IMG/VR virus record: IMGVR_UViG_3300042992_001439
Coordinates: 1 to 36,079 of that record
From: a virus
Strand: one strand, 5' to 3'
Length of the DNA stretch: 36,079 nt
Part shown: one piece after another, positions 1 through 12,295 of the stretch
Numbering within the stretch: the stretch's first letter is position 1
How the letters are laid out: each line of letters begins with the position of its first letter
Notes under the pieces: generated by a model
What the model was told of the DNA's origin: nothing
The model's database searches: none
The model's input: the letters and a program-made list of their open reading frames with translations, nothing else
Translations under genes and position numbers: made by a program

Positions 1-1557
1 ATCCGTAAGGCTCAGGGCTGTAGGTGTTCCGCCGTGGTCAGAGGTAATTGCATAACCATTATTGGTGAATTGGGAATCATTGAATGTGGTAACTCCACCG
101 CCGCCTTGGTAGAAAGCCCAAGATGAATGATTGGAAATCTTTATACGATTGAACGTCATTGTTCCAGAGGCGTTGTAAATCAGACCACCGTTCCATGACA
201 CATTTTTACCTTGCTTGAATGTCATGTCTTCAATAACAATTGTTCTTGAGCCATTGTTGTAAATTGCCCGCCACAAATTATTGCCATCAATAATCGTCGT
301 AGTCATTCCCGTGCCAGTGATTGTTACACCAGCCGTAATATTGGGCAAGTCGGAAGTAAGGGTGATTGTCCCTTCTGTGGTGATGTCAATGGCATCGTAA
401 ATCCCACCAGCATTTGCGTTGGCTTGATTGATTGCCCAGCGAAGAGTTCCGCTTGAACCATCATCCAAGAGACTTGTAACTTCAAGCGATGTTGAAGCGG
501 GAATAGTAGTAGTGGTGGTGGTACTTGTAGTAGTCGTAGTGCTCGTGGTGGTTGTCTGAGGAACCGTAGTGCTCGTAGTGCTCGTAGTAGTAGTTTGGGC
601 AACAGTAGTTGTAGTTGTAGTTGTAGTTGTAGGGGGAACCGTTGGGGCAGTCTCACTATTTGACGCAACTCCGCCAAATGATGCGCAATTGTTTGAAATG
701 CAACGGTTCGTTGAACCAGCCTCGCTATCAACCATCAGCGCTGGAGGTAAACCTGAATCATCAAGGTTAAACGAAGCAAAACCAAGTTTATAAGTACCGC
801 TTATAGAGACTTGATATGTTGAAGTTTGCCAACCCGTAGAGCCATAAGAATTCGTTGAGTAGTCGCCAGTGCCGGGATTGGTGAATCCAAGAAGTGCGTA
901 TTGCTTGACATAGTTGTTTACCGTTACTACTGGAGTGCCAGTAACAGTCACGGGGACAAGTGAAGTTATGGAGCCGTCGTTGAAGGGTACATAGTCAGTT
1001 CCGACATAGTTCCACGCCATTGTGTAGGTCGTGCCTGCCGTCAGTTCTACCTCACGAGTAATCCATGCTGCGTCTGTCGGTGTACCTTGACCGTTGCCTG
1101 ATGCTTGCGCCTGCGATGTAAGCATGTTTTTAATTTCTGTTACCGAGCCAGCCGAAAGGCTCAAAGCACTTGCCGCTTGGTCAAAAGTCTGTTCACTTTT
1201 GGGTTGAAGAAGAACAGCGTTTGTTCCGTTATTAGGGGAGAATGTCCAACTGCCAGAAGCAACTGCTGAGGCGTAATACGGGCTAGACGGACTTCCAACA
1301 GCACCCCTAGAACCGTGAGTGAAAGTCCGAGAACCAGTAAATATGGTTACGCCACTACCGTTGCCAGTGATGGTGCTACCCAATGTTCCCGTTTGGGATC
1401 CTTTTGACCAGCCTGTGAAAGTTCCATCCTCAAAACCTGCATCAGGGAAAGAAGCAGCCTGTGCCGTATCGGGCAAAGGGACAAAAAGGGCGAGCAGAAC
1501 TACTGAGACAATGAGCGCTGACACGCGCCGAAATGACAAATTAGACCGTTGAAGCAA
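1..1557 (-). CDS. Secreted multidomain protein with poly-Thr linker and beta-helix domain (3' truncated)
   Basis: The frame stays open to the left edge, so the C-terminus is missing (about 519 residues visible). No ATG is available; in-frame TTG at 1557 or 1539 and GTG at 1524 are possible. The two TTG starts keep the basic n-region (LSFRR) of a convincing Sec signal peptide (hydrophobic core ALIVSVVLLALFVPL, cleavage likely after DTAQA). Next comes a beta-sandwich-like region opening with the FEDGTFTGW motif seen in extracellular carbohydrate-binding modules, then a Thr/Ser/Pro linker of about 45 residues encoded near 501-640, then a region typical of right-handed beta-helix surface proteins (SGTLRWAINQANANAG). 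Role inferred: exported adhesin or polysaccharide-binding protein. It diverges from the fibre gene at 1662. A signal peptide is unusual for a phage virion protein; the poly-Thr linker style is common in actinobacterial surface proteins. It could be host-derived cargo or the edge of host DNA. Confidence 0.7.
   Translation of the reverse strand, partial: MLQRSNLSFRRVSALIVSVVLLALFVPLPDTAQAASFPDAGFEDGTFTGWSKGSQTGTLGSTITGNGSGVTIFTGSRTFTHGSRGAVGSPSSPYYASAVASGSWTFSPNNGTNAVLLQPKSEQTFDQAASALSLSAGSVTEIKNMLTSQAQASGNGQGTPTDAAWITREVELTAGTTYTMAWNYVGTDYVPFNDGSITSLVPVTVTGTPVVTVNNYVKQYALLGFTNPGTGDYSTNSYGSTGWQTSTYQVSISGTYKLGFASFNLDDSGLPPALMVDSEAGSTNRCISNNCASFGGVASNSETAPTVPPTTTTTTTTTVAQTTTTSTTSTTVPQTTTTSTTTTTSTTTTTTIPASTSLEVTSLLDDGSSGTLRWAINQANANAGGIYDAIDITTEGTITLTSDLPNITAGVTITGTGMTTTIIDGNNLWRAIYNNGSRTIVIEDMTFKQGKNVSWNGGLIYNASGTMTFNRIKISNHSSWAFYQGGGGVTTFNDSQFTNNGYAITSDHGGTPTALSLTD
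501..640 (-). repeat. Low-complexity threonine-codon tract
   Basis: Runs of ACT, ACA and ACG codons (read on the minus strand) encode two or three blocks of consecutive Thr broken by VAQ, VPQ and Ser. This is the interdomain linker of the left-edge secreted protein. Such tracts change length easily by slippage and are often O-glycosylated in exported proteins; glycosylation here is only a guess. Confidence 0.8.
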
Positions 1558-1619
1558 TGAAGAACCCCGACGATAATTTTACAACATTGCAGTCACATTA
1601 AAATAAACCCATTTTGATG

Positions 1620-1625
1620 TATAAT
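1620..1625 (+). promoter_or_regulatory. Possible -10 element (TATAAT) of the rightward fibre operon
   Basis: A perfect TATAAT lies 36 bases upstream of the ATG at 1662, in the divergent gap between the secreted-protein gene and the first plus-strand gene. No good TTGACA-like -35 box is seen at 16-18 bases spacing, so a sigma-70-type promoter is only weakly supported. A short GAGG near 1654-1657 can serve as the ribosome binding site. Confidence 0.3.
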
Positions 1626-1661
1626 TCAACAACGCTAAACACAAAATTGTGATGAGGTCAT

Positions 1662-2528
1662 ATGGCAGGTGCGGGAGTTCGGTTATTTACTGCTGGTAGC
1701 CAGTTATTGGCTTCGCAAATAAACGACTATTTAATGGATCAGGTTGTCACCTACTTCACAGACAGCGCTGCTCGTGATGAGGCTTTTGGTGGTATTGGCG
1801 AACCTTCGCTAAGCCCAGGGAGAGTCTGTTACCTGTTTTCTGACAACAAACTTTACCTTTACGGCAACGATAATCAATGGACAGAAATCGGTGCACAGAT
1901 AGACGACCTAGAAGTAACTACAGGCAAACTTGCTGACGGTGCTGTAACCTCAACAAAAATTCTTGACGGAACCATCCTGAACATTGACATTAATGCTTCT
2001 GCTGCGATTGCCTACAGCAAGTTGAATCTTGCCACTTCTATTGTCAACGCTGACATTAATGCTTCAGCCGCGATAGATAAAACAAAGATTTCTGGTACCG
2101 CAGTCACCTTGGCAGACACGGGAACCATAACCAGCACGATGATTGCCAACGATTCAATCATTGATGCCGACATTAAGAGCAATGCGGCGATAGCACTAGG
2201 GAAATTAGCCGATGCAACTATTGACATCAAAACAGCAAACTACACGCTCGTCTTAACAGACAAAAATAAGTTCATTAAAATGAACATAACAAGCACGGCG
2301 AATACTGTCACCGTCCCTCTTGACTCAACAGTTACCTTCCCCGAAGGAGCACAAATTCATATTATTCAATACGGAACAGGCAAGACGCAAATTGTTGGTG
2401 CCTCGGGGTCGGTAATACTTTATTCAACTCCGGGCGCTTTCTTACGTGCACAATATTCATCGGCAACTTTGCTGAAGTGCGCCGCGGCGAACACTTGGAT
2501 GTTGATGGGTGACTTGAGTGCTTCATGA
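1662..2528 (+). CDS. Phage tail-fibre-like structural protein
   Basis: 288 residues. The N-terminus (GVRLFTAGSQLLASQINDYL) and following segment with GRVCYLFSDNKLYLYG look like the attachment head of minor fibre proteins from aquatic phages. Residues about 85-185 contain a repeated pattern of the type ADGAVTSTKILDG / NADINASAAIDKTKI, a stalk-like beta repeat. The C-terminal third (ANYTLVLTDKNKFIKMN ... GDLSAS) is a beta-rich fibre domain that recurs in the middle of the protein at 11144-12295. It is the first gene of the plus-strand block and its TGA overlaps the next ATG (ATGA), suggesting translational coupling. A structural role is well supported; the exact position on the virion is unknown. 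Confidence 0.75.
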   Translation: MAGAGVRLFTAGSQLLASQINDYLMDQVVTYFTDSAARDEAFGGIGEPSLSPGRVCYLFSDNKLYLYGNDNQWTEIGAQIDDLEVTTGKLADGAVTSTKILDGTILNIDINASAAIAYSKLNLATSIVNADINASAAIDKTKISGTAVTLADTGTITSTMIANDSIIDADIKSNAAIALGKLADATIDIKTANYTLVLTDKNKFIKMNITSTANTVTVPLDSTVTFPEGAQIHIIQYGTGKTQIVGASGSVILYSTPGAFLRAQYSSATLLKCAAANTWMLMGDLSAS

Positions 2529-3226
2529 TCCCCGGCAATACTTCTAGCCAAGGAAAGTATGTAGATCCGCCGACGTCTGTTTCGGCTACTGCGGGGAACG
2601 GTCAGGCAACTGTTTCGTTTACTTTGCCTGTTTACGATGGTAAGGGTGTAGCAACTTTTGTGGCTACTTCTTCACCGGGTGGTTTTACTGCGAGTGGGGC
2701 TAGTTCGCCTATTACTGTTACTGGTTTGAGTAATGGTACTGCTTATACTTTTACGGTTACTACGATTAGCGGTTATGGGGTGACTACTGTTTCTAGTGCT
2801 TCAACTGCGGTCACACCTGTTGCCCCTGCCCCTCCTTCCTTCCCTCCTTCGTTTCCTGTCCCTCCTTCGTTCCCACCAGATTTCACGCCTGTCCCTCCTT
2901 CATTCCCACCGTCCTTCCCACCTTCTTTCCCTCCTTCGTTCCCACCGTCGTTCCCACCGTCGTTCCCGCCTTCTTTCCCTCCTTGTTTCGCCACCTGTAC
3001 GCCACCATGCGGCGCTGCGACGCTTTCCGGTTCTACAGCCTGTGGAGGAGCCGTTTGTTGTGGCTGTGCTTCGGGATGTCCGGGATGTTGGTCTGGCAAC
3101 CGCAGGTGGAACAGGGACTGTTACACCTACAGCCAGCAATCGTGTGTTGACGCATGTGGCACAACCCGCTACCGTACATGTAGTAGTTTCTGTGTAGATT
3201 CAACTGTTGCAAGTTCTTGTTGCTAA
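2525..3226 (+). CDS. FNIII protein with (PPSF)n repeat and Cys-rich C-terminus
   Basis: 233 residues in three parts. Residues about 14-98 form a fibronectin type III domain (PPTSVSATAGNGQATVSF, then GLSNGTAYTFTVTT). Residues 103-155 are a proline/phenylalanine repeat: PPSF units interrupted once by PPDF, with seven in a row, ending in PPCF. Residues 154-233 hold about 16 cysteines, including CC, CxC and CPGC arrangements. FNIII domains are common in phage tail proteins; the Pro-rich part resembles stiff extended linkers, and the Cys-rich end could be a disulfide knot or a metal site. It starts within the stop of the upstream fibre gene (ATGA). Several candidate prolyl-hydroxylase-like genes lie directly downstream, so hydroxylation of the repeat is possible but unproven. 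The composition is unlike any neighbour. Confidence 0.65.
   Translation: MIPGNTSSQGKYVDPPTSVSATAGNGQATVSFTLPVYDGKGVATFVATSSPGGFTASGASSPITVTGLSNGTAYTFTVTTISGYGVTTVSSASTAVTPVAPAPPSFPPSFPVPPSFPPDFTPVPPSFPPSFPPSFPPSFPPSFPPSFPPSFPPCFATCTPPCGAATLSGSTACGGAVCCGCASGCPGCWSGNRRWNRDCYTYSQQSCVDACGTTRYRTCSSFCVDSTVASSCC
2831..2989 (+). repeat. 12-base tandem repeat encoding PPSF
   Basis: Degenerate 12-base units (variants of CCTCCTTCGTTC and CCACCGTCGTTC) encode PPSF/PPDF/PPCF tetrapeptides, with seven uninterrupted PPSF units and a final PPCF. Third-base variation between units with an unchanged amino-acid pattern suggests selection at protein level rather than only recent slippage. Confidence 0.85.
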
Positions 3227-3246
3227 AATAAAATCAAGGAGACAAA

Positions 3247-3489
3247 ATGTCAGATATGGATACAGAAGAAACACCCAAACCAACAGTCTTTGCGTTCATC
3301 GTTGATGGCGAAGTTGGCTGGTTGCATGGCTACGATTACCGCGCCGAACAAGCCGTCGCAGCGTTAAGGTCAAATCCTGTAGTCGTTGAAGTATCGCAAG
3401 AAGACGTAGACCGAATGGTCACACCAGAAGACGGACCGAATTATATTGGTTGGACTTATCTAGACGGCGTTTTCAGTCCACCAGCATGA
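3247..3489 (+). CDS. Small phage protein, tail-associated type
   Basis: 80 residues, acidic, with AAGGAG placed well ahead of the ATG. No enzyme motif is seen. The C-terminus (GWTYLDGVFSPPA) has the W-x-Y-x-x-G-x-F-x-P-P pattern that ends many small phage proteins encoded beside tail-fibre genes, some of them assembly chaperones. The middle holds a short helical segment (RAEQAVAALRS). Its stop overlaps the next start by ATGA. A fibre-assembly accessory role is a reasonable guess from context; the function is not known. Confidence 0.6.
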   Translation: MSDMDTEETPKPTVFAFIVDGEVGWLHGYDYRAEQAVAALRSNPVVVEVSQEDVDRMVTPEDGPNYIGWTYLDGVFSPPA

Positions 3490-3713
3490 GTGCTTGGAAA
3501 GATTATAAGAAGAAGTTAGGTGAAGCGCGACCTTGGGATTTGTTAGCCGAAGAAGCAGCACGGGTATCTATAGAAGACGAGAAAACTAGATACGACATTT
3601 GTCTTGATTGCGACAGATTGCTCCCCATCACTCATCAATGCAAAGAGTGCGGATGTTTCATGAAACTAAAAGTCAAATTAAAAGTTGCTACATGCCCTCT
3701 CGGTAAATGGTAG
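3486..3713 (+). CDS. Small zinc-ribbon protein, DUF6171-like (copy 1)
   Basis: 75 residues starting at the ATG that overlaps the preceding stop (ATGA). An upstream ATG at 3450 lies inside the previous gene and is less likely. The C-terminal half has two Cys pairs and a conserved tail: CLDC, then QCKECGCFMKLK, then CPLGKW at the end. This C-x2-C ... C-x2-C-G-C-F ... C-P-x-x-K-W pattern is that of DUF6171-type zinc ribbons. In phages such ribbons often sit beside glycosyltransferases and oxygenases, as here. The N-terminal 30 residues are a charged helix. The molecular role is unknown; metal binding is likely. Confidence 0.7.
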   Translation: MSAWKDYKKKLGEARPWDLLAEEAARVSIEDEKTRYDICLDCDRLLPITHQCKECGCFMKLKVKLKVATCPLGKW

Positions 3714-3719
3714 CCATTT

Positions 3720-4337
3720 ATGGACATAGTGGAACGCAGGGCGTTGCCAGATTTGGTTCCACCAAGTTATTGGGGTAATGATGCAAAAAATATCCACATA
3801 GTGGATAATTTCGCTACAACCGACGAAGTAAAAAATCTCAACGACTATGTAGCGTCTATTACCAATTGGACTGGCAATCAAGAAAACTTTAGATATAAAG
3901 ATAAAATACATTTAAACATTGACCAATCAATGCTCCCATTGTTTGATGATTTATTTGCCCGAATGAAAAACAGCATTCAATCAGTTTTCCCCGTTGAAGC
4001 AATCCCGAATGGGTCATCTATCTGTAAATGGGTAGTTGGAGATTCCCAACCAGTTCATGCTGACAAACAAGAACAAGACGGACGCCCCAATTCTCAACAA
4101 GACCAAGACATCGCCTCTGTGATTTATATAAACGATGGTTCGGAGTTTGGTGGTGGGGAACTTTATTTTCCAAATCAATCTTTGCAAATAAAACCCAAAG
4201 CAGGGATGGCTGTATTTTTCCCCGGTGACATAAATTATTCACACGGCGTAAAAACGGTGACCTCTGGCGAAAGATATACCATCCCGTTTTTTTGGAAGGT
4301 CATTTGTGTTAAACAGGCGAACGAAAAGACTGCGTGA
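3720..4337 (+). CDS. 2OG-Fe(II) oxygenase, prolyl-4-hydroxylase-like (1)
   Basis: 205 residues. The jelly-roll core carries the usual facial triad: H113-A-D115 (PVHADKQ) and distal H175 (INYSHGV), with R185 ten residues later to bind the 2OG C5 carboxylate. The family strand motif GGGELYF lies between them. The enzyme would use O2 and 2-oxoglutarate to hydroxylate a substrate, giving succinate and CO2. It begins seven bases after the zinc-ribbon gene and is followed by a glycosyltransferase-like gene. The substrate is unknown: protein proline or lysine in tail proteins and sugar or lipid groups are all possible. Confidence 0.85.
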   Translation: MDIVERRALPDLVPPSYWGNDAKNIHIVDNFATTDEVKNLNDYVASITNWTGNQENFRYKDKIHLNIDQSMLPLFDDLFARMKNSIQSVFPVEAIPNGSSICKWVVGDSQPVHADKQEQDGRPNSQQDQDIASVIYINDGSEFGGGELYFPNQSLQIKPKAGMAVFFPGDINYSHGVKTVTSGERYTIPFFWKVICVKQANEKTA

Positions 4338-4352
4338 TTAGCAGTACGCGGT

Positions 4353-5123
4353 ATGGAAATAAAATTATGGCATTTTTATCATGCGTATGCCCAAGAAAAT
4401 CAAGAGCACATTTGGCGACCAATAGTTGACGAGCATGTCAACATGTTGCAGTCATCTGGTATTTCATCAAAACTAAACAAAACCTACATAGGTGTTGTGG
4501 GCGACGAAACTAGTGCAGACAAAATTTCAACAATATTTAAAACAAAAGGTATAGATCACGAGATTTGCGCAGTTAGTGATCACGGCTGGGAGCAAGTAAC
4601 TCTAAACAAATTATATGAGTTTTCCTTAAGCAACGATGGTTATGTGCTTTATGCACACACAAAAGGTGCGTTCTACCCAACCAAGGTAAGGGATTCCCAC
4701 AGAAGAACAATGAGCGAACATCTCATTGGAAGATGGACAGAAAACGTGGATCTATTGTCCAAGGGGTTCTCCGCTACAGGATTGTTCTTTCTAAAAGGTT
4801 CCCCAGAACCAAAAGTAAAACAACCCGAAGAATCAGCACCCGAGGACATACACCCCAACATAAAGCGCTATCGCGGATTTTTCGCAGGCAACTTCTGGTG
4901 GTGCAATTTAGATTTCATAAAACGGATGGGGTATCCATCTATGGAAAACAGAATAAAAGCAGAAGGGTGGATGAATAATTTATACGATTCAACTGATAGT
5001 TTTGAATACATGGTTTACGACATGCTTCCCAACAAATTATACGACATCCTTGCTCCGTGTCTTCTTCTTCCACATGATGAGCGATGCTTAATATGCCCCA
5101 CCTTGGCAAGCAAAGAAGTGTGA
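4353..5123 (+). CDS. Probable glycosyltransferase (HTKG-type)
   Basis: 256 residues. The fold looks like a nucleotide-sugar transferase: an N-terminal alpha/beta part (KLWHFYHAYAQ ... KTYIGVVGDE), a central VLYAHTKGAF motif (residues 98-107) and a FFAGNFWWCNLDFIKRM segment (residues 176-192). HTKG-like and GNFWW-like motifs occur in uncharacterised glycosyltransferases related to rhamnan synthesis proteins and in phage homologues. There is no clear DxD, so catalytic residues cannot be named. It lies between two 2OG oxygenase genes with a one-base gap to the next gene, suggesting a joint modification pathway. No strong ribosome binding site is seen, so coupling to the upstream gene is likely. 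Confidence 0.6.
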   Translation: MEIKLWHFYHAYAQENQEHIWRPIVDEHVNMLQSSGISSKLNKTYIGVVGDETSADKISTIFKTKGIDHEICAVSDHGWEQVTLNKLYEFSLSNDGYVLYAHTKGAFYPTKVRDSHRRTMSEHLIGRWTENVDLLSKGFSATGLFFLKGSPEPKVKQPEESAPEDIHPNIKRYRGFFAGNFWWCNLDFIKRMGYPSMENRIKAEGWMNNLYDSTDSFEYMVYDMLPNKLYDILAPCLLLPHDERCLICPTLASKEV

Positions 5124-5124
5124 C

Positions 5125-5982
5125 ATGGAAGCAAAAGAACTTTACCCCAAAGTCATGGTTTTTGAAAATGCTTTAGAAAATCCTCAAGATTTTTTGAAGT
5201 CCATCACCGTGGACATGGAATATGTAAACCCATGGACACCATGGTATTCGCTTGGCAAAGAAACATTTTTTACTGAATACTCATGGATTGAAACAGAAAA
5301 CTTTCCTACACAAGAACAATGGGATGAGAAGTTTGGTGGTCTCAAAAATCCATTGGCTAAACGAATATCTGATTTGTTTTACGATTGCACAAAACAATAT
5401 GTAGAAAAATACGGTGTCACTATCCCAAACTGGTCTCACGGAACCCCATACCTTTTAATACATGACGCGAAAGAACCAACGCAAAAAACAGCGATGACCT
5501 ACCACACGGATTTCATTATGGCGCAAACACACAATCCGGGGTACAAGCATTGGGTCACATGTTTGGTGTATCTGAACGACGACTACGAAGGAGGTGAAGT
5601 AGCCTTCAAAGTATTCAAAGACGATGTTGATTTTGATCACTTCATTTATAAACCAATAAAAGACGATTACGAAGGAGGTGAAGTATCCCTCCAAGCATCC
5701 AAAGACGATGTTGATTTTGATTACTTTATTTACAAACCAAAAGCAGGAGATGTTCTCGTGTTACCCGCTCATCCACCGTATTATCATGGTGTTCACGCGG
5801 CAAAAATTAGTGAAAAAGTTTTTATCAGATTGTTTTGGGGATACGAATATGCTGGCAGTGAAGAATGGCTAGCAAATCAAAACAAATATGGCAAAGAAAA
5901 ATGGGGAGAAATGGAAAAAGAACGGTTAGATGAAGAATTCAAAACAGCAAAATGGTCAAAGGGTCCGATAGAGGAGTTATAA
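5125..5982 (+). CDS. 2OG-Fe(II) oxygenase with internal tandem duplication (2)
   Basis: 285 residues, long for this group. The facial triad is H127-T-D129 (TYHTDF) and H221 (YYHGVH); K231 stands where many homologues have Arg for 2OG binding, a known alternative in prolyl 4-hydroxylases. Between them the DDYEGGEV segment occurs twice: residues 152-179 and 180-207 are an in-frame duplication (84 bases each) that adds a second copy of the strand and loop lining the active-site mouth. The C-terminal 40 residues are charged and helical. It sits one base after the glycosyltransferase gene and touches the next oxygenase gene. Catalysis looks intact; the duplication may reshape substrate access. Confidence 0.85.
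   Translation: MEAKELYPKVMVFENALENPQDFLKSITVDMEYVNPWTPWYSLGKETFFTEYSWIETENFPTQEQWDEKFGGLKNPLAKRISDLFYDCTKQYVEKYGVTIPNWSHGTPYLLIHDAKEPTQKTAMTYHTDFIMAQTHNPGYKHWVTCLVYLNDDYEGGEVAFKVFKDDVDFDHFIYKPIKDDYEGGEVSLQASKDDVDFDYFIYKPKAGDVLVLPAHPPYYHGVHAAKISEKVFIRLFWGYEYAGSEEWLANQNKYGKEKWGEMEKERLDEEFKTAKWSKGPIEEL
5578..5745 (+). repeat. 84-base in-frame tandem duplication
   Basis: Unit 1 (5578-5661) and unit 2 (5662-5745) differ at about 12 of 84 bases by eye (roughly 86% identity). Both encode DDYEGGEV ... KDDVDFD-x-FIYKP. A shared central run (AAAGACGATGTTGATTTTGA) is identical. The exact 28-codon length keeps the frame, so this looks like a tolerated or selected duplication rather than decay. Confidence 0.92.
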
Positions 5983-6621
5983 ATGCTTGATTATTATCAT
6001 TTGGGTGTAGAAGAAATGGGTGTTCGTGTATACAAAAACGCGATACCCGATTGTGCTGAAGTTTTAGAAACGATCACTTCATCCATAGACGCTAATCCAG
6101 ACCCGCTTATAAAATGGGAACAAGCGAAAGTCGGACGTAACTTATACATGCCGGACTATAGAAACTGTTGGGATTGTAAATTATCAGTAGATTTTGTTAC
6201 TTCATTAGATAATTCACATAATGGGCTAAGGGACGCATACGGGAAAGTGGTTATGTCAGTAGGTTCTTCCCTGCAACATTATTCGCAGTTCTACAACATG
6301 AATATTACATACATGGAAGCAGTGAACTTTGTGAAATATGGAATAGGTGAACACTTTGATGTTCATGCCGATCACGGGTTTTCTTACACATGCACGGTGT
6401 CAACCACCGCCTATCTTAACGACGACTATGAAGGTGGTGAACTTTGGTTCAATCATTTGGGTATAACATTCAAACCAGAAGCCGGAGATATCTGTGTATT
6501 CCCATCAACATTTATTTACTCGCATGCTTCACTACCCGTCAAATCTGGAGTCAAATATAGTGCTGTGACGATGTTTGACTACAATGATTCCAACCATAAG
6601 GCGGGAGGGTATGCAAGTTGA
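5983..6621 (+). CDS. 2OG-Fe(II) oxygenase (3)
   Basis: 212 residues. The motif GEHFDVHAD gives H128 and D130 as likely iron ligands (H124-F-D126 is a second HxD-like pair just before). The distal ligand is H181 (IYSHASL) and K191 replaces the usual Arg as 2OG-binding residue. NDDYEGGELWF (residues 146-156) matches the duplicated segment of the preceding oxygenase, showing the two are close paralogues. A GAGGAG precedes the ATG, which directly abuts the previous stop. It is probably co-expressed with the upstream oxygenase and glycosyltransferase. Substrate unknown. Confidence 0.85.
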   Translation: MLDYYHLGVEEMGVRVYKNAIPDCAEVLETITSSIDANPDPLIKWEQAKVGRNLYMPDYRNCWDCKLSVDFVTSLDNSHNGLRDAYGKVVMSVGSSLQHYSQFYNMNITYMEAVNFVKYGIGEHFDVHADHGFSYTCTVSTTAYLNDDYEGGELWFNHLGITFKPEAGDICVFPSTFIYSHASLPVKSGVKYSAVTMFDYNDSNHKAGGYAS

Positions 6622-6672
6622 ATATTGAGAAATACACAGATACGCCACCTCATACTTTTGGATAAAAACTAA

Positions 6673-6828
6673 ATGAACAACAAAAAACTTGAAGCACACG
6701 AACGATACGCAATATGCGTAGCATGCCCACGCTTCTTCAAAATCACAGCACAATGCAAAGAATGCGGATGCTTCATGAAAATTAAAACAAAAATGCCTGA
6801 CCAAGAATGCCCGTTAGGCAAATGGTAA
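6673..6828 (+). CDS. Small zinc-ribbon protein, DUF6171-like (copy 2)
   Basis: 51 residues. After a short charged N-terminus the sequence reads ICVAC, then QCKECGCFMKIKTK, then ends CPLGKW, the same pattern as the 75-residue protein at 3486-3713 but without its N-terminal helix. The conserved Cys spacing and the CPLGKW end in two distant copies show that it is a real gene. No clear Shine-Dalgarno is seen ahead of the ATG. It is the last plus-strand gene, only 16 bases from the end of the convergent minus-strand oxygenase gene. Zinc binding is likely, role unknown. Confidence 0.75.
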   Translation: MNNKKLEAHERYAICVACPRFFKITAQCKECGCFMKIKTKMPDQECPLGKW

Positions 6829-6844
6829 ACACAAGACAACTACC

Positions 6845-7483
6845 CTATTGCTGAAACTCCAGCCAAGAAGTCAAAATATATTTAACCCCATCCAACGGCG
6901 GATTACCCCGATGAGTATGAGTGTAAGACGCAGGTGCCAAAACCAAACGTCCCTGCATTGGATGCACCCGTGCCGACTGGTAAATGAACTCTGTTTCACC
7001 ACCCAAATTGACGTCATTGAGATACAAAATAATAAACGCCATTCTCCTTGACGTTGGTATATCCCCTTGCTCGCAATGCCAAACATGATAACCCTCTTTG
7101 GGAAGTGTTTTTTGTAGTTTTATAACAGAAAAATCACATTTAGCAGTACTAGAAGCAAGATGCGGATACTTCTCCAAATACATAGGGAAACAAACATCCC
7201 AAAACTTTGTCAAAAATTCAGGCAAACACTGATCACTCACCGAGTTATCTATAAATACTGATTCCGTATTAATCTCATCTCTCAAACCTATTTCCGTACC
7301 AAAATTTACCGAAGCGTCCTGTTTCGTGCTGCTGTTTCTCTTGAAAGCCATTTTGGAACGGTACTCAAAAAATGCAATGAACTTATTGCATAGTTCTGGA
7401 GAAAAGAAATTATCCCAAACGGCGATATGTTCGCCCAAACTAAAAGATTCTTTACCTGTGTTAGAAGGGTATAAAACTGACAT
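6845..7483 (-). CDS. 2OG-Fe(II) oxygenase, HxE variant (4)
   Basis: 212 residues from the ATG at 7483, which is preceded by AGAGGAG; a start at 7591 would overlap the upstream gene by over 100 bases without a better site. The jelly-roll core has YHVWHCEQGD (H136-C-E138), so a Glu stands where Asp is usual, followed by YLNDVNLGGETEF, distal H191 (YTHTHRG) and K201 as probable 2OG ligand. HxE is found in a minority of the superfamily and can still bind iron. It is the most distal gene of the minus-strand modification operon and overlaps the gene before it by 23 bases. Substrate unknown. Confidence 0.78.
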   Translation of the reverse strand: MSVLYPSNTGKESFSLGEHIAVWDNFFSPELCNKFIAFFEYRSKMAFKRNSSTKQDASVNFGTEIGLRDEINTESVFIDNSVSDQCLPEFLTKFWDVCFPMYLEKYPHLASSTAKCDFSVIKLQKTLPKEGYHVWHCEQGDIPTSRRMAFIILYLNDVNLGGETEFIYQSARVHPMQGRLVLAPASYTHTHRGNPPLDGVKYILTSWLEFQQ

Positions 7484-7976
7484 ACTTACTCCTCTCCCCT
7501 GATCTGTTCGTAATGTCGTAGCCGAGCGTAATGCGGTGACCTTCGTAAGGCTCCAACACTTCAACTTTGTGCTTTTTATGTCCTTCGCCAAAGTATATTT
7601 GCGCAGGTTTATTCTCTACAGTGAAGTCGTCAAATACCGTATTAGTTTTCTTTGGGTCTATTGTGATATATCCGTGCCATGCCCACTCATGATCATGCCA
7701 ATCAAGAACATCATGCTGTGTGTGATAGTTCATCCAGCATTGCATCCATAGCGGTTGATCCCCCAACACAGAACGTACCCTCAATTGAAGTTCTTTAAAC
7801 AACGAATACATGAGACTGTCTGTTGAAGTAAGGGTGAAAACATTGTAGGTAGAGTACGCCTTAGTGAATTCGGTATGCCCATAAATGTCATTAAACTTAA
7901 AACGAGCAAAGTCAAGTATCCCTTCAAATCCTTGAAGGTTGTTCTCTATCAGGCTTGAACGCTCTAGGAATATCAT
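7461..7976 (-). CDS. Jelly-roll (2OG oxygenase-like) protein with WHDH motif (5)
   Basis: 171 residues. The core motif LDWHDHEWAWHGY (residues 91-103) offers H94, D95 and H96 as metal ligands, not a plain HxD; a distal His at 136 and R148 in GHRITLGYD would fit the rest of a 2OG-oxygenase-like site. A strand with a PAQIYFGEG motif lies between. Homologous phage proteins are usually annotated as oxygenase-like or hypothetical. Its start overlaps the stop of the upstream gene by four bases (ATGA). Iron and 2OG use are plausible but less sure than for the neighbouring oxygenases. Confidence 0.6.
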   Translation of the reverse strand: MIFLERSSLIENNLQGFEGILDFARFKFNDIYGHTEFTKAYSTYNVFTLTSTDSLMYSLFKELQLRVRSVLGDQPLWMQCWMNYHTQHDVLDWHDHEWAWHGYITIDPKKTNTVFDDFTVENKPAQIYFGEGHKKHKVEVLEPYEGHRITLGYDITNRSGERSKYVSFIPF

Positions 7977-8731
7977 AGAAGGTTCTCTGTAATCTCTTTT
8001 AGAATAATTTTTCTCATTGGCGAGCGGTCAAATAATTCGTATCGTGATGCAAGGGTTTTCCACCTTTTGGAACGAGCGTGGATTATTTCCCCACCTATGG
8101 TGTGAAGTTTTTCTGTTGCTTCAAATCTTTTGAGAACTATTTTACGATCAGTACCAAACTCTATGTAAGCAAGTGGCTCACCAGCCTCTATCTCTAGTTT
8201 GGTTCCTCCGTCCCAAAGATTGTATTCAAAGTTGATAGGTCTGAACCATCGCCCAATATCGTAATTCCCGGGTATTAAAGAACCATATTGCATGTGTGGC
8301 GCTTTGTGAAACCATGGTGAGGTCAATCGCATTAGAACTGGTTCTTCTGCAAAGAATATGTGCTGAAGGTTATAGCAAACAAGCAACTGATTGGTCAACG
8401 ATGGCGCGTGTGGCATCGTGATTTTAACTTGTGAATCCCTGCTCACTTCTTGGATAACTCTTCCCACCTCGCCAGTTTCTTTTATTTCTACTTCTGCCGA
8501 ACTTGTAAGTGGGTTGTAAATAACATAAGTGGGCAGAAGGGTATCTCTGACTGCTGGACATTGAAAAAAGTTGCGTGAAACATCTTGGTTGTACATTTGT
8601 TCTGTAAGTTCAGACCAAAGACCGATAGGAGGAGAGAACATTATTTCGCTGGGTCCTGAAAGATCTGGTCCTGCTTTAGTTCCTCCCTTCATTGTCCAAG
8701 GAGCCCAATAAACCACCAACTCTTTACTCAT
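7973..8731 (-). CDS. Uncharacterised phage protein, DUF6065-like
   Basis: 252 residues with no transmembrane segment or classic catalytic motif. The central part (LTSPWFHKAPHMQYG, then GRWFRPINFEYNL) and the phrase IEAGEPLAYIEFG resemble DUF6065-type proteins, which also combine a preferred-substrate-like WFRP region with an 'AGEP/AGTP' turn. A probable distant relative occurs at 27322-28023. It overlaps its neighbours by four bases on both sides and lies between two jelly-roll oxygenases, so it probably serves the same pathway. Family assignment is tentative and the function unknown. Confidence 0.5.
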   Translation of the reverse strand: MSKELVVYWAPWTMKGGTKAGPDLSGPSEIMFSPPIGLWSELTEQMYNQDVSRNFFQCPAVRDTLLPTYVIYNPLTSSAEVEIKETGEVGRVIQEVSRDSQVKITMPHAPSLTNQLLVCYNLQHIFFAEEPVLMRLTSPWFHKAPHMQYGSLIPGNYDIGRWFRPINFEYNLWDGGTKLEIEAGEPLAYIEFGTDRKIVLKRFEATEKLHTIGGEIIHARSKRWKTLASRYELFDRSPMRKIILKEITENLL

Positions 8732-9321
8732 TTGAACCTATCTCCCTCAACCCAAATGACCAATGAGTATCTGCTTCCTTTGGTTACTTTGGTTACACGA
8801 TGCTGAATAAAAGAAGGGAAAAAGACAACTGTTCCTTGTTTCGGTTTCAGTGCAATTTCACAACTATCATCAGCATATCTGTTTACCTCCAACTCCCCTC
8901 CTTCGTATTCAAGGGGATCGGAAAGCACTACCGATAGGGACAACTTTCGCGTAAAAGGTTGATTTTTCCCACCGGGGATTAAATCCATATGCCAGTCATA
9001 GTAGTCACCAACAGAGTAGGAGGTGAACTGCATATTGGGGAAGTAAACCAAATCAAAGTTAAACAACCTGTCGTTAACATTGTCAGTTACTTCTTTTATT
9101 CTTTCAAAAATCCATTTTGTTTCTTCTGAAGGGAACAGGAAGTTAACTTTTGAACTTCTAGTTTTGTTCTCCACCTCACCGCTGGCTATTTTCGCTTGCT
9201 CTAATTTTTGCAAACCGAGGCTGATAATTGCATCGCATTCTTCTGCTGTGAAGGTTTCTGACAGCGTTGCGTGAGTATAAAAAATATTGTCAGCCGGATG
9301 TCCTATCCGTATATCACTCAT
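8728..9321 (-). CDS. 2OG-Fe(II) oxygenase, prolyl-4-hydroxylase-like (6)
   Basis: 197 residues, the most typical member of the set. It has YYDWHMD (H111, D113), a YEGGELEV strand, distal H174 (FIQHRVT) and R184 (KGSRYSLVIW), matching PKHD/P4H-type hydroxylases. The N-terminus (SETFTAEECDAIISLG) is the usual family opening helix. It overlaps both neighbours by four bases. It would hydroxylate an unknown substrate with iron, O2 and 2-oxoglutarate. All expected ligands are present. Confidence 0.88.
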   Translation of the reverse strand: MSDIRIGHPADNIFYTHATLSETFTAEECDAIISLGLQKLEQAKIASGEVENKTRSSKVNFLFPSEETKWIFERIKEVTDNVNDRLFNFDLVYFPNMQFTSYSVGDYYDWHMDLIPGGKNQPFTRKLSLSVVLSDPLEYEGGELEVNRYADDSCEIALKPKQGTVVFFPSFIQHRVTKVTKGSRYSLVIWVEGDRFK

Positions 9322-9716
9322 TCCAATGAAAACTTGTAAAACGCATTGATCACTGGATGGTTGCTTCTAATAACTTCTGCTGGCACTGCTTCTTTCGGCA
9401 AACTCGGGTTACTCTGAATCACTTTTTGTTCCATATGCCCCTTGTAAACAACATATGCCAAGTTGTGGAACTCATCCATACAGCGAACGGATTCTTTCAT
9501 GATCTTAGAATTTGGGACTCGCTTTGTGGTGAACATCTCTAGGTTGTATTCGGTTATAGTGGTTACGAACTCCACAATAGAATCTTCTAGATTTTGTAAT
9601 AGTTCTGGATGTGCGTCAATCGCCATACACATTCCCTCAAAGTCCGAAAGATGAAGAACCATCCCCTCATGGACGACCACTGGTCCTTGACTACTTGGTA
9701 CAATTTCCGTTGTCAT
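9318..9716 (-). CDS. Hypothetical protein of the oxygenase operon
   Basis: 132 residues, mixed alpha/beta, no recognised motif. The start at 9716 has a strong GGAGG site (GGAGGCTTAATG) and the stop overlaps the next gene (ATGA), so it is a real operon member. The middle is helical (NLEDSIVEFVTTITEYNLEM), and a lone Cys pair is not arranged as a metal site. It may be a partner or regulator of the following oxygenase, but nothing in the sequence proves that. Confidence 0.6.
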   Translation of the reverse strand: MTTEIVPSSQGPVVVHEGMVLHLSDFEGMCMAIDAHPELLQNLEDSIVEFVTTITEYNLEMFTTKRVPNSKIMKESVRCMDEFHNLAYVVYKGHMEQKVIQSNPSLPKEAVPAEVIRSNHPVINAFYKFSLE

Positions 9717-9738
9717 TAAGCCTCCACAGTGTCCCTGT

Positions 9739-10008
9739 TTAGGCTACATCAAACCTGTGGATATACACGTTCAGATCAACAGTTTCATCCTCGGGGAGAT
9801 CGTCTGCTGGCGTCGTAAATGTTGTTACCATGGCATGAATTAACTGTTTAGCCTCATCAAGTGTGCATATTGCTTCGTTGCTTGCTGGGTATTCGTTATC
9901 TTGGAGGATGCGGTCGTGTGCAATATTTAAATAAAACAGCACGGAATTAACCCTTTTTTCAATGTCGGCTGAGTCGGTGTTGAAAGTTACTGTCCTGTTA
10001 TGTGCCAT
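9739..10008 (-). CDS. Hypothetical small acidic protein
   Basis: 89 residues, acidic, mostly helical in the middle (IEKRVNSVLFYLNIAHDRIL and LDEAKQLIHAMVTTF). It has no known motif. Its start lies within the 3' end of the small zinc-ribbon gene (11-base overlap), which supports co-translation. It belongs to the same minus-strand operon as the oxygenases. Confidence 0.6.
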   Translation of the reverse strand: MAHNRTVTFNTDSADIEKRVNSVLFYLNIAHDRILQDNEYPASNEAICTLDEAKQLIHAMVTTFTTPADDLPEDETVDLNVYIHRFDVA

Positions 10009-10165
10009 GTTTACCCCATTTTCCTAGTGGACAAGACGATGATGCGACTTGTGTCTTAATTGTCATAAAGCATCCACACTCTCTACAGGTAGAAGTGAAA
10101 CGAAAAAACCGTTCACATCCCCTGCATATTGATAGTCGCTCATTGATTTTTTCCCTACTTAGCAC
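9998..10165 (-). CDS. Small zinc-ribbon protein, DUF6171-like (copy 3)
   Basis: 55 residues from a GTG start preceded by AAGGATAGA at proper spacing; no ATG lies in this frame upstream of the first Cys pair. The protein reads ICRGCERFFR, then TCRECGCFMTIKTQ, then CPLGKWGKHGT. The Cys pattern and CPLGKW match the other two ribbons (3486-3713, 6673-6828), with a five-residue tail after the Trp. It lies at the head of the minus-strand modification operon, ten bases after the fibre gene. Probable zinc binding, unknown partner. Confidence 0.72.
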   Translation of the reverse strand: MLSREKINERLSICRGCERFFRFTSTCRECGCFMTIKTQVASSSCPLGKWGKHGT

Positions 10166-10174
10166 ACTCTATCC

Positions 10175-11134
10175 TTATTCGCTATAGTCAACACGAACTA
10201 TGGCTGAACTTGCGTTGTTCGTTGCAGGTGCATAAACAATCCCAAACTTCGTTGCTGGAATCGGCGTCCCTATTGATATTGCTGGTGCTGTGACCACGGT
10301 GTTTGGCGCTGAACTCACGGCTGTTGTTACCGTTGCTCCGTTAGCAGTTGTCTGTGCTTGAATATAAGTCAAATAGTTGTTTGCTGTTAAGTCAGATAAA
10401 TCAGTTGTGCTCACCGTTGAAACCGTTCCTGCTGTTTTCTTAATGATTTTGATTTGCGAACGATTCCATGGAGTTGGAGTACCCCCATATGTTGTGGCGG
10501 TGTAGTTGTACGGTGCGCTTTGAACATAGTAGTTGTATGGCGCATTTGCTACACCCCAAATATCTGCCGAGCCAACCTTTGTCCACCAGTTGGGTGGATT
10601 TTCGTAATAGTTATAACAATCACAGCCAAATACAGTTGCATAACTACATGCACAGTATGCATACGGTCCGCCACCAACCGCAGGATATGGTCCACCACCA
10701 GTCGTGTTATAAGTGCAGTTCCCATTTGAGTTATTCACAACGGCTATGTTTGACCCGTTCGTAGGACAGTTGAATGGGGCAGCGGTATAGTCAGTTTTTT
10801 CCGCTATTGCCGCCCACCAGTTGTCGTTGTCTGTAACCCAAAAAGCAACACCTGCTCCCGCTGATTTTGCGGCAGGAAGAGTTGCTTTCACAACAGCATC
10901 CGTTGACAGAGCATCAAAAGTTAACAGCGGGTAAGAACTAGCCGCAGTACTTGTAACGGCGGTGTTGCTAGATATACCCCAAGTTCCGCTAGTAGCAGTC
11001 CAAGGAGCATCGCCACCAACCACACTTGCATTGTTAGCCCGAGTGAATGTATCAAAGAAAGCCCCCAAGCGAAGTATCTTTGAAAATCCGAACCTACGAG
11101 AACTTCCTTGCCCAATTCTATTAAGGAATGGCAT
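10175..11134 (-). CDS. Tail-fibre-like protein with lectin-like N-terminal domain
   Basis: 319 residues. After a short basic leader, FFDTFTRANNASVVGG and TWGISSNTA mark a jelly-roll (concanavalin/LamG-like) domain as found in phage fibres. Residues about 120-215 are rich in Cys, Tyr and Gly (YAYCACSYATVFGCDCYNYY), an insert that breaks the beta-sandwich. The C-terminal part (VVTAPAISIGTPIPATKFG) returns to the domain's last strands. AAGGA precedes the ATG. It probably binds a surface glycan. The Cys-rich insert recalls the Cys-rich tail of the protein at 2525-3226, though the sequences do not align. Confidence 0.65.
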   Translation of the reverse strand: MPFLNRIGQGSSRRFGFSKILRLGAFFDTFTRANNASVVGGDAPWTATSGTWGISSNTAVTSTAASSYPLLTFDALSTDAVVKATLPAAKSAGAGVAFWVTDNDNWWAAIAEKTDYTAAPFNCPTNGSNIAVVNNSNGNCTYNTTGGGPYPAVGGGPYAYCACSYATVFGCDCYNYYENPPNWWTKVGSADIWGVANAPYNYYVQSAPYNYTATTYGGTPTPWNRSQIKIIKKTAGTVSTVSTTDLSDLTANNYLTYIQAQTTANGATVTTAVSSAPNTVVTAPAISIGTPIPATKFGIVYAPATNNASSAIVRVDYSE

Positions 11135-11143
11135 GATTGATCC

Positions 11144-12295
11144 TTATGCGAATTTCGTCATGCTTGCAAACGCCGTATATGTCGCTGAAGCAGTTTTGGT
11201 TAGCGTGACGGTGTACATGTTTATTGAAGAAGCCTGACCTGCTGAAACGGCTGTGCCTCCTTGCCATTTCGGGGTGATTGCCACACCATCCACCTGATAG
11301 GCGGTCGCATAATAAGGCGTCGCACCCATTGTCGCCATAAAAGTTACGGTTGCCACTTCACCAACCGCCAAAATATCATTCATTGCGACAGTTGATGTCC
11401 CTCTAATGTTGAGAACAAAGTTACCTGTCGCGTTACCAGTACGCAAAACTGAAGCATTTACCGCGAAATCAATGTTTATTGTTCCTGTAGCGCCAGTTGC
11501 GCTGAGAGCAATTTGTTCAGTGAAAGACGAAGGAAGCGAACTTATAGTGAACTGCCAGACATTTGTGCCTGTTTTCGTCAATCGGGCTTTTTGATGTGGC
11601 ATAACAACAAGCCATTGTCCTGCCGACTTGTTGACAGTCACACCAGAAATAGGGCTAACTATCACAGGGGATGTGGTGGATGTGAAATCTATCCAGTCGT
11701 TTGTCGCAAAAGCAACGCTTGCATTCAACGGAACAGATAATATGATCGCATCAGCATTAGTAAAACTTATATATTTGCTTGCATCACCGAGTACCAAGGT
11801 GTATGAGGCATCAGCAACTGAAGTGATTGGTGAAGCCAAGTTTGCTTTTAATGCGTCTGCGGTATCAACATATGCTGTTGTGGCAACCGCCGTGGTGTTA
11901 TTTGAAGCAGTCTGTGTCGTAGCGATAGTGCCGGTTGGAAGGGTAGGGGTTCCCGTAAAGGTTGGGGAAGCCAATTTTGCGTAACCTTGACCCACAACAT
12001 ATGCGGTAGTAGCAATTTGGGTGGTGTTTGTATCAACCGCAGCGGTAGTGGATAATGGTACGCCTGTGAATGTTGGGCTAGCCGTTGGAGCCAATCCAGT
12101 CACTACACCCGTATTGCCGTTTACCGAGGTAACGCCAACTTGGTATGGAAGGCTATTCCATGCGGTAGAACCGTTGCCAAGTTTAAGTTTCCCTGTGTCG
12201 GTTTCTCCACCTAGTTCGCCAGACGCAAGAGTTGGGTTAGACGCCGTCCAATTAGACGCCGTGTCCCTACGAATCAATATTCGTCTAGTTGTCAT
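11144..12295 (-). CDS. Tail fibre with Mtd-N-like head and fibre repeats
   Basis: 383 residues. Residues 1-54 (ILIRRDTASNWTASNPTL ... STAWNSLPYQ) match the N-terminal fold of Bordetella phage Mtd and many fibres, which trimerise and attach to the virion. Residues about 60-160 hold fibre repeats of the ASPTFTGTP ... TQTASNNTTAVATTAYV type. Next is a beta domain like the C-terminus of the 1662-2528 protein (YTLVLGDASKYISFTN), then a C-terminal domain that recurs at the end of the long right-edge fibre. GGGAG precedes the ATG. No variable repeat or reverse transcriptase is near, so it does not look like a retroelement-diversified protein. Confidence 0.75.
   Translation of the reverse strand: MTTRRILIRRDTASNWTASNPTLASGELGGETDTGKLKLGNGSTAWNSLPYQVGVTSVNGNTGVVTGLAPTASPTFTGVPLSTTAAVDTNTTQIATTAYVVGQGYAKLASPTFTGTPTLPTGTIATTQTASNNTTAVATTAYVDTADALKANLASPITSVADASYTLVLGDASKYISFTNADAIILSVPLNASVAFATNDWIDFTSTTSPVIVSPISGVTVNKSAGQWLVVMPHQKARLTKTGTNVWQFTISSLPSSFTEQIALSATGATGTINIDFAVNASVLRTGNATGNFVLNIRGTSTVAMNDILAVGEVATVTFMATMGATPYYATAYQVDGVAITPKWQGGTAVSAGQASSINMYTVTLTKTASATYTAFASMTKFA

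Follow-up and report, generated by a model that had tools for sequence, protein, structure and literature searches.

The window, the whole 36,079-nucleotide stretch of the viral record IMGVR_UViG_3300042992_001439, carries two gene sets, one on each strand. Within the plus-strand set lies a cassette that probably hydroxylates, and perhaps then glycosylates, the proline array of its own FN3 tail protein. The cassette consists of the array gene 2525, the oxygenase genes 3720, 5125 and 5983, and the putative glycosyltransferase gene 4353 (genes are named by their lower coordinate; Table 1). An array gene followed by downstream enzymes is common to many relatives of this phage.

Table 1. Features of the proline-array cassette and its neighbourhood in the window
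Feature	Position	Strand	Evidence or remark
Minor-tail/fibre-like gene	1662..2528	+	PHROG tail and virion matches; stop overlaps ATG of gene 2525
Array gene: FN3 domain, proline array, Cys-rich end (16 Cys)	2525..3226	+	PF00041 over cut-off
Proline array, 12 PPxF units	2822..2983	+	Last unit runs into Cys-rich end; proposed hydroxylation substrate
Small ORF, cassette passenger	3247..3489	+	Similar ORFs in 4 array loci and 7 others
Zinc ribbon DUF6171	3450..3713	+	PF19668, 28.0 bits (cut-off 27)
2OG-Fe(II) oxygenase, proposed prolyl hydroxylase	3720..4337	+	PF13640; H113, D115, H175, R185; model pLDDT 92
Probable glycosyltransferase, GT-A-like fold, no known family	4353..5123	+	Predicted structure
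2OG-Fe(II) oxygenase with internal tandem duplication	5125..5982	+	PF13640
2OG-Fe(II) oxygenase, proposed prolyl hydroxylase	5983..6621	+	PF13640; H128, D130, H181, K191
Second zinc ribbon	6673..6828	+	PF19668, 21.7 bits, under cut-off 27; just outside exchanged block
2OG-Fe(II) oxygenase, not cassette	6845..7591	-	PF13640; 93% identical in L670, outside exchanged block
Jelly-roll-related protein at most, not cassette	7461..7976	-	phrog_2696; weak phrog_81
Protein with phrog_17480 match, not cassette	7973..8731	-	PHROG
PKHD/YbiX-like 2OG-Fe(II) oxygenase, not cassette	8728..9321	-	PF13640, 66 bits; NCBIfam YbiX-type matches below cut-off

The product of gene 2525 has a long proline-rich repeat of the kind that characterizes hydroxyproline-rich glycoproteins. 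The first-pass annotation had counted about ten Pro-Pro-x-Phe units; there are 12 (10 PPSF, one PPDF and one PPCF), against a maximum of four in 2000 shuffles of the protein's own residues. Proline codons are mixed (CCT, CCA and CCG), so the array is not a pure DNA repeat. All of the cysteines lie in the C-terminal 80 residues. Both the FN3 domain and the overlap with the upstream tail-like gene are features of tail fibre genes, and the protein is predicted to be part of the virion. In the fibre region of the minus strand, four of ten sampled proteins had tail PHROG matches.

Five ORFs (3720, 5125, 5983, 6845 and 8728) passed the curated cut-off of PF13640 (2OG-FeII_Oxy_3), confirming the five clear 2OG-Fe(II) oxygenases of the first-pass annotation. 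In an alignment of the 3720 type (28 rows), H113, D115 and H175 are invariant and R185 is present in at least 90%; in that of the 5983 type (25 rows), H128, D130, H181 and K191 are all invariant. We take His-x-Asp...His to be the iron triad and R185/K191 to be the basic 2OG-binding residue, the combination found in prolyl hydroxylases (P4H/P3H). Sequence profiles of the two types, run against the PDB, ranked P3H1 and the B. anthracis P4H at the top, and the solved structures closest in sequence belong to prolyl and lysyl hydroxylases, with prolyl 3- and 4-hydroxylases first. The top Foldseek match of the 3720 model was vCPH, the viral prolyl hydroxylase of PBCV-1. By structure, PKHD-type hydroxylases, including the iron-uptake factor PiuC, scored as high as prolyl hydroxylases: PiuC, vCPH and PHD2 tied (Z 17.0 for the PKHD type versus 16.9 for prolyl hydroxylases), and hence the fold does not fix the substrate.

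Comparison across loci points to the array as that substrate. Around 129 non-duplicate array genes, counted out to 8 kb, 321 oxygenases lay downstream versus one upstream (569 versus 371 kb available), and 292 of the 321 were on the strand of the array gene. A downstream oxygenase was present in 72 of 83 array loci with at least 3 kb of downstream sequence; the other 11 had none nearby. In the reverse direction, starting from 3720-type queries, a PPxF array was found upstream in 47 of 55 loci with at least 3 kb upstream. As controls, oxygenases were present in 13 of 15 FN3-pattern loci with an array, 11 of 100 without an array, and seven of 60 random viral contigs; nine of the 11 array-less loci with an oxygenase have a Pro-rich stretch that is of a different kind or weaker, and these stretches comprise about four distinct types, some of them recurring. 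Closeness was a weaker signal than sidedness, with a median nearest distance of 296 observed versus 690 for random placement in the same stretches, and values below random in 59 of 97 loci. Exceptions also occurred among whole records: nine of 50 array records had no oxygenase over the Pfam cut-off (one of these, L123, has no true array). Likewise, four of 46 PPxF loci with 2 kb of downstream sequence had no downstream oxygenase, three of them with Hint-like ends as judged by eye.

The association follows proline content. Among genes with the common FN3 end, a downstream oxygenase accompanied 48 of 52 with Pro-rich tails versus two of 22 with Pro-poor tails (Fisher p = 3.6 × 10−12, uncorrected for kinship). 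The co-occurrence of oxygenase and proline-array genes in related phages, which the first-pass annotation had proposed to check, was borne out. The Pro-rich class includes polyPro, (TPPP)n, (APTPP)n and (TP)n, all of them free of Phe. Since polyPro, (TPPP)n and (TP)n behave in this count as PPxF does, it is proline and not Phe or Ser that matters, and the Ser and Phe of PPSF are not essential to the association.

The enzymes might instead modify other residues of the array protein (Phe, Tyr, His, Asp, Ser or the Cys-rich end). PPxF tails have on average 3.87 downstream oxygenases, whereas the Phe-free Pro-rich tails of class B have one each in eight of ten loci (the other two are cut off within 0.7 kb), so that the surplus enzymes may act on further targets; three lie at the polyPro locus L383. 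Furthermore, the x position of PPxF is mostly Phe, Tyr, His or Ser, and genes for Asp/Asn hydroxylases and TauD also occur downstream of arrays. Against modification of non-proline residues, which we consider improbable, an oxygenase is kept by nearly pure Pro stretches (L387 and L458) and by those interspersed mainly with Thr (L418 and L469), and the solved enzymes nearest in sequence are those named above. We regard hydroxylation of the array prolines as quite likely.

In one relative, the cassette has been exchanged as a unit. Homology between the window and a close relative, L670, ends at 2826/2827, at the start of the array, and resumes at 6635/6636, after the last cassette oxygenase, with flanking DNA 77-83% identical. 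Inside these limits L670 differs in its array (PPVT), oxygenases and glycosyltransferase together; array, oxygenases and glycosyltransferase were exchanged as one block.

This exchange bears on two further explanations. According to the first, the oxygenases have another target (host LPS or glycan, a host protein or phage DNA) and lie near fibre genes because this is a cargo hot spot. Marine cyanophages have fibre-side 2OG-Fe(II) oxygenases of the same superfamily (PHROG 61), near fibre genes in S-SM1. In the stretches read of S-SM1 and of pelagiphage HTVC033P, both with fibre-side 2OG genes, no PPxF array was found, and arrays are thus not needed for such genes. The available portion of one study describes numerous 2OG genes in 14 of 16 cyanophage genomes and suggests roles in nitrogen signalling or DNA repair (PMC3037559). 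Among the records listed (25 of 30 and 25 of 173), named phages were less than 30% identical to 3720 and 5983 over most of their length, and more similar only over half or less. A cargo hot spot leaves unexplained the almost exclusively downstream position of the oxygenases, the contrast between Pro-rich and Pro-poor FN3 tails, and the exchange edge at the array start, and we judge it unlikely. According to the second, a few phage clades inherited both arrays and oxygenases from their ancestors, and the two stay together with no functional tie. The 134 array loci indeed collapse to 22 groups at 70% oxygenase identity linkage and to seven at 50%. However, array genes keep the downstream oxygenase whether their N-terminal domain is FN3 or PASTA and whether their end is Cys-rich, S74 chaperone, Hint-like or FK; in L670 the block was exchanged independently of the flanking DNA, and inside one FN3 family the tie tracks proline content. 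Common descent alone therefore seems very unlikely.

The first-pass annotation had placed all six jelly-roll proteins in one cassette. The minus-strand oxygenases 8728 and 6845 were rejected as members: they are the nearest window type for only four and five of 526 collected oxygenases, a pool that leans to array loci, and in the eight loci where an 8728 homologue is preceded by 3 kb or more of sequence, no PPxF array lies upstream of it on the same strand. The true start of 6845-7591 is probably internal. Calling 7461-7976 a related protein was fair, as it matched only phrog_2696 and, weakly, phrog_81 (2OG oxygenase; E = 8.4 × 10−5), with no Pfam match over cut-off, PF13640 included.

Gene 4353, labelled a probable glycosyltransferase earlier, has a predicted structure (pLDDT 74) whose best matches are nucleotidyltransferases and GT-A enzymes (TM about 0.4-0.5). 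At the limits applied, it matched nothing in Pfam (PF11397 included), NCBIfam or PHROG, and no relevant PDB sequence; without a family match, the label stays a guess from the model. Homologues of 4353 in array loci L373 (67%) and L374 (59%) lie opposite to the array strand together with those of 5125, in L373 behind a 6845 homologue, so that both genes appear to be linked to the array more loosely than the 3720 and 5983 types are. Array-strand glycosyltransferases of other families, all over cut-off, occur in other cassettes: (i) PF04488 in L007, L012 and L022; (ii) PF04577 in L670; and (iii) PF11397, seen only in L157. Their distribution is patchy, with two PF04488 and one PF11397 among 107 downstream genes scanned. 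Two of the three zinc ribbons reported earlier, 3450 and a DUF6171-type one at 9998 (32.0 bits), exceed the cut-off of 27, and 6673 does not; matches to 3450 were found at 38 array loci and 10 others.

We propose that the plus-strand block 2822-6621 unites a tail-tip protein and the enzymes that modify it in one exchangeable cassette. Oxygenases of the 3720 and 5983 types in the first place, with 5125 as helper, would hydroxylate array prolines in the cytoplasm of the host, ahead of virion assembly; the adjacent glycosyltransferase (4353, or PF04488, PF04577 or PF11397 types in relatives) would then place sugars onto the new hydroxyls. The distal tail end would become a stiff rod, rich in hydroxyproline and probably glycosylated, that resembles the cell-wall glycoproteins of plants or algae, and this may change host recognition or mask the tail. 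The hydroxylate-then-decorate scheme of the first-pass annotation thereby receives strong comparative support, except for its minus-strand members. We regard the proposal as likely overall, and hold glycosylation less firmly than hydroxylation, at about even chances.

Both PBCV-1 prolyl 4-hydroxylase and the hydroxyproline-rich glycoproteins of plants and algae are already known, and the phage cassette is a variant on these. Extensins and arabinogalactan proteins likewise combine Pro-rich repeats, P4H and Hyp glycosyltransferases, and the (TPPP)n and (TP)n tails resemble their motifs; those are cell-wall proteins, whereas here a phage tail protein from a bacterial cell is predicted to carry Hyp. 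Like 3720, the prolyl hydroxylase vCPH (PDB 5c5t/5c5u) is virus-coded and small, and its fold is the same. PBCV-1, a chlorovirus, infects eukaryotic algae, whereas the cassette here belongs to a bacteriophage, codes for several such enzymes and links them genetically to a tail gene with a Pro array. PBCV-1 is the best precedent, yet the lack of detected Hyp in its virions counts against the proposal: the accessible text on vCPH reports that it hydroxylates Pro-containing peptides, that no Hyp was detected in virions and that its role is not established (PMC7019647). A gene of PF11397, which presumably covers the Skp1 GlcNAc transferase, follows array and oxygenase in L157; the Skp1 system concerns one folded protein in protist oxygen sensing, and the family is rare among the phage genes scanned. 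As excerpted, a source on that pathway describes a cytoplasmic P4H (PhyA) followed by a GlcNAc transferase, and Hyp-linked glycans as requiring earlier prolyl hydroxylation (PMC8724618). In the part available of a structure-based survey, the prolyl hydroxylase EGLN3 is the human protein most often matched by phage proteins, with no substrate given (PMC12774648).

The analysis names a candidate substrate for phage 2OG-Fe(II) oxygenases that is coded next door and testable. We give even chances to a broader reading, that phages have a general system, modular in build, for tail tips made of hydroxyproline-rich glycoprotein, in which a Pro-rich array on one of several tail domains is combined with cis-coded prolyl hydroxylases and interchangeable decorating enzymes, swapped as blocks and changing outer chemistry. 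Arrays in this reading comprise PPxF, PPVT, polyPro, TPPP and TP, and decorating enzymes PF04488, PF11397, PF04577, a novel glycosyltransferase, sulfotransferase and carbamoyltransferase. If true, this would be, to our knowledge, the first bacteriophage hydroxyproline glycosylation system, would help to explain why 2OG oxygenases are so abundant in phages, and would provide a source of small prolyl hydroxylases with built-in substrates. Phages would then make post-translationally modified, possibly glycosylated tail tips, which bears on host recognition and tail evolution.

The 36,079-base virus record has the same sequence as part of G009, a record of 144,873 bases. The alignment of the window runs over both ends of G009, which is therefore circularly permuted relative to it. 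G009 codes for a tail sheath protein and for a portal whose nearest family is phrog_2662, so the phage has the appearance of a myovirus with a genome near 145 kb. A T4-type cyanophage was considered and rejected, both on the sheath and portal and because the ORFs of a 40-kb stretch of cyanophage S-SM1 matched only oxygenases among the G009 ORFs of at least 150 aa. Megablast with the region gave no match among named phages.

The PPxF protein reported in the first-pass annotation was confirmed: behind its FN3 domain, the C-terminal half of the array gene is a proline array of 12 PPxF (Pro-Pro-x-Phe) units, followed by an 80-residue end with 16 Cys (see table; other ORFs are named by their start coordinate). 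The start of this gene overlaps a tail-like gene. Five proteins exceeded the PF13640 cut-off, in agreement with the five 2OG-Fe(II) oxygenases named previously, while 7461, listed as a related protein, is a distant relative at most. The proposed glycosyltransferase 4353 gave a GT-A/nucleotidyltransferase-like model but matched no known family, and had four weak phage matches. All three zinc ribbons were of the DUF6171 type, two over the cut-off and one under it.

Coordinates of features in and around the cassette (window positions)
Feature	Position	Strand	Remark
Array gene	2525-3226	+	FN3 domain, proline array, Cys-rich end
Proline array	from 2822	+	within the array gene
Zinc ribbon	3450-3713		flanks the gene blocks
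Tandem duplication in 5125	5581-5748		28 residues
Zinc ribbon	6673-6828		flanks the gene blocks
Zinc ribbon	9998-10165		flanks the gene blocks
Protein upstream of the 8728 set	10175-11134	-	no Pro array

The association of arrays and oxygenases is large and directional. Array loci were those found first among the matches listed, not a random sample. A scan of viral contigs for FPPxFPPxFPP yielded at least 120 stretches, 116 of them with an ORF of at least five PPxF units; an oxygenase was present in 84 of these 116, among the matches listed, according to our own HMM (built from pooled ORFs; no reversed-sequence matches at E 1e-3). With the same model, FN3-pattern loci among the matches listed carried an oxygenase in 13/15 cases with an array vs 11/100 without, and random viral contigs in 7/60. 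Using the Pfam model on whole records (17 of 20 obtained), oxygenases were found in 12/12 PPSF-array records, whose array status was judged by eye and among which are the phage studied here (L014) and two pairs of near-duplicates, vs 0/5 chance matches. FPPxF records exceeded the Pfam cut-off in 41 of the 50 obtained for 120 listed loci. Chance occurrence of arrays was rejected as an explanation: when bacterial genomes were scanned for a comparable DNA pattern, at least 119 stretches came up, among which, as far as listed, only L562 was phage-like, and this one carried two oxygenases; the other listed stretches (ORF with at least four PPxF) held seemingly unrelated proteins or other frames, with no oxygenase match.

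Within 8 kb of 129 non-duplicate array genes, 321 oxygenases lay downstream and a single one upstream (among the loci listed), with 292 of the 321 on the strand of the array. At least one was present in 72 of the 83 listed loci having at least 3 kb downstream. The nearest oxygenase was located at a median of 296 bases from the array (97 loci with both) vs 690 under random placement in the same stretches, and the observed distance was below random in 59/97 loci, so that the side on which oxygenases lie tells more than their proximity. Conversely, a 3720-type query, itself built from array loci and with the best 80 of 578 relatives kept, found a PPxF array upstream in 47 of 55 loci with at least 3 kb there.

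The association follows proline. We searched the end of the FN3 domain (A-[ST]-N-x-V-T-P-[VA]-A-P) without condition on what follows, classed the tails afterwards, and compared all loci fetched by then that contain this motif, of which 97 remained once 26 duplicates had been dropped (array-found loci included). Among the matches listed with at least 2 kb downstream, oxygenases accompanied 48/52 Pro-rich tails (PPxF, 42/46; others, 6/6) and 2/22 Pro-poor tails; these counts exclude 21 loci with less than 2 kb downstream and two loci with tails of 8-14 Pro, one of which had an oxygenase. In L438, one of the two oxygenase-bearing Pro-poor loci, the tail is short and reads PPYFPPAF. Pro-rich tails other than PPxF (polyPro, (TPPP)n, (APTPP)n, (TP)n) comprised 10 loci, of which eight carried exactly one oxygenase and two are cut off within 0.7 kb; the single oxygenases were nearest to 3720 in six cases and to 5983 in two (L420 and L469). 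PPxF tails had a mean of 3.87 oxygenases. A target of Ser or Phe only was rejected for the PPSF units, as x is mostly F, Y, H or S and Phe-free arrays keep their oxygenases.

Either FN3 or PASTA domains carry the array, and the end behind it can be Cys-rich, an S74 chaperone, Hint-like (under cut-off) or no more than 'FK', which marks the array as the shared element. Hint/intein-like ends stand behind the arrays of L013, L024, L157, L240, L287 and L464; PF13403 matched under its cut-off in L013 and L157, and the other four were judged by eye. Such ends also occur in three of the four PPxF loci that have no oxygenase in the comparison of FN3 tails. A Peptidase_S74 chaperone domain (43.6 bits) directly follows the array in L115 (1085-1771), and 37 of 158 arrays simply end in K, many in 'FK', as if cut there.

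The first-pass annotation had assigned all six jelly-roll proteins to a single cassette. This was rejected: 8728 and 6845 are rarely the nearest type, the eight 8728 loci compared have no PPxF array upstream, and the minus-strand genes lie outside an exchanged block. Among 526 unique oxygenases, a pool that leans to array loci, the nearest window type was 3720 for 244, 5983 for 218, 5125 for 47, 6845 for 5 and 8728 for 4, with none for 8. Loci found with 8728 and having at least 3 kb upstream contained a PPxF array there in 0/8 cases (own phage L669 dropped; L679 and L680 flagged 'Pro-rich' by a loose rule, without PPxF). Relatives of the PPSF protein share the order array gene, zinc ribbon, 3720-type, then 5125- and/or 5983-type oxygenase on the array strand. 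This order is kept in L007, L025, L022, L011, L012 and L018; the sequence of L006 ends after the 3720-type oxygenase, and L017 and L013 have this type on the other strand. The minus-strand genes 8728-7973-7461-6845 move as a separate block in L373, L670, L672, L673 and L677. Counter to a clean split, homologues of 4353 and 5125 lie opposite the array strand in L373 and L374, in L373 behind the minus-strand block. The protein upstream of the 8728 set displays partial likeness to array-locus proteins of L183, L158, L082 and L092.

A close relative, the 138-kb contig L670, has minus-strand counterparts 83-93% identical and an FN3 part 94% identical. Its DNA is homologous to window positions 1477-1928 and 2164-2826 (77-78%) and again to 6636-11818 (83%); in between, only short zinc-ribbon pieces align. 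Homology stops at most 5 bases from the array start and resumes 15 bases after the 5983 gene. L670 has a (PPVT)n array with a different Cys-rich end, a Glyco_transf_61 protein (PF04577, 37.8 bits against a cut-off of 27) and a pair of PF13640 proteins with 29-35% identity to those of the window. Array, oxygenases and glycosyltransferase thus differ together, with proline kept. L670 is one case, and none as clean was found in the pair search (among 40 of 65 pairs listed). The short alignments at the zinc ribbons suggest that cassettes could be exchanged by recombination at these genes.

In the 3720 alignment, H113, D115 and H175 were invariant and R185 nearly so; for 5983, H128, D130, H181 and K191 were all invariant. 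For 3720, profile searches put prolyl 3-hydroxylase 1 (E 1e-11) and the B. anthracis P4H at the top; for 5983, the B. anthracis P4H was ranked above the PBCV-1 P4H. The 3720 model (pLDDT 92.2) had PBCV-1 vCPH as top Foldseek match, and its VIA-align scores were tied between PiuC (17.0), vCPH (16.9) and PHD2 (16.9), so its structure alone leaves the substrate unfixed. The putative oxygenase 5125 contains an internal tandem duplication (DYEGGEV...DDVDFD twice), present as a single copy in its L007 homologue.

Glycosyltransferases on the array strand belong to unrelated families between loci: predicted 4353 in the window, PF04488 in L007, L012 and L022, PF04577 in L670, and in L157 a PF11397 'GlcNAc' transferase (133.7 bits against a cut-off of 21) that follows the array and the oxygenase. 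A Pfam scan of 107 of the 185 non-duplicate downstream genes (downstream genes only; 25 of 37 families listed) gave, among the families listed, DUF6065 as the commonest non-oxygenase match (15), glutathione peroxidase (9), TauD, Asp/Asn hydroxylase, PF04488 and sulfotransferase (2 each), and carbamoyltransferase and APS kinase (1 each). Decorating enzymes are patchy, which makes glycosylation a less secure prediction than hydroxylation. The glutathione peroxidase-like family lay downstream in 20 array loci (24 genes; e.g. L089, L095 and L098) and upstream in none; our guess is a redox function alongside the oxygenases. A family of about 240 residues (L092:6569-7282 and relatives) was likewise found downstream in 35 array loci (41 genes) and upstream in none, and the representative examined had no Pfam match.

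Among named phages, tblastn with the array protein gave no match, though BLAST masks such repeats, so that absence of arrays holds only for the stretches of S-SM1 and HTVC033P that were read. HTVC033P has Pro-rich ORFs, but these are antisense to annotated genes. S-SM1 (L368, 19387-22572) carries 2OG oxygenases and a 'leprecan'-annotated gene, which follow a fibre gene at a distance of a few genes; no PPxF array was found in this stretch. Our search of the open-access literature found no report of hydroxylation of phage proline arrays. The P4H encoded by PBCV-1 acts on Pro peptides, and Hyp was not found in the virions (PMC7019647). The Skp1 pathway is a cytoplasmic one that couples a P4H with a GlcNAc transferase (PMC8724618), and viral use of P4H has been termed cryptic (PMC9301287).

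Hydroxylation of the arrays is the best explanation and quite likely, and the chances that Hyp would also be glycosylated in this phage appear evenly balanced. The cassette itself, a proline-array tail protein with probable prolyl hydroxylases of its own and variable decorating enzymes, is real, widespread and exchangeable.
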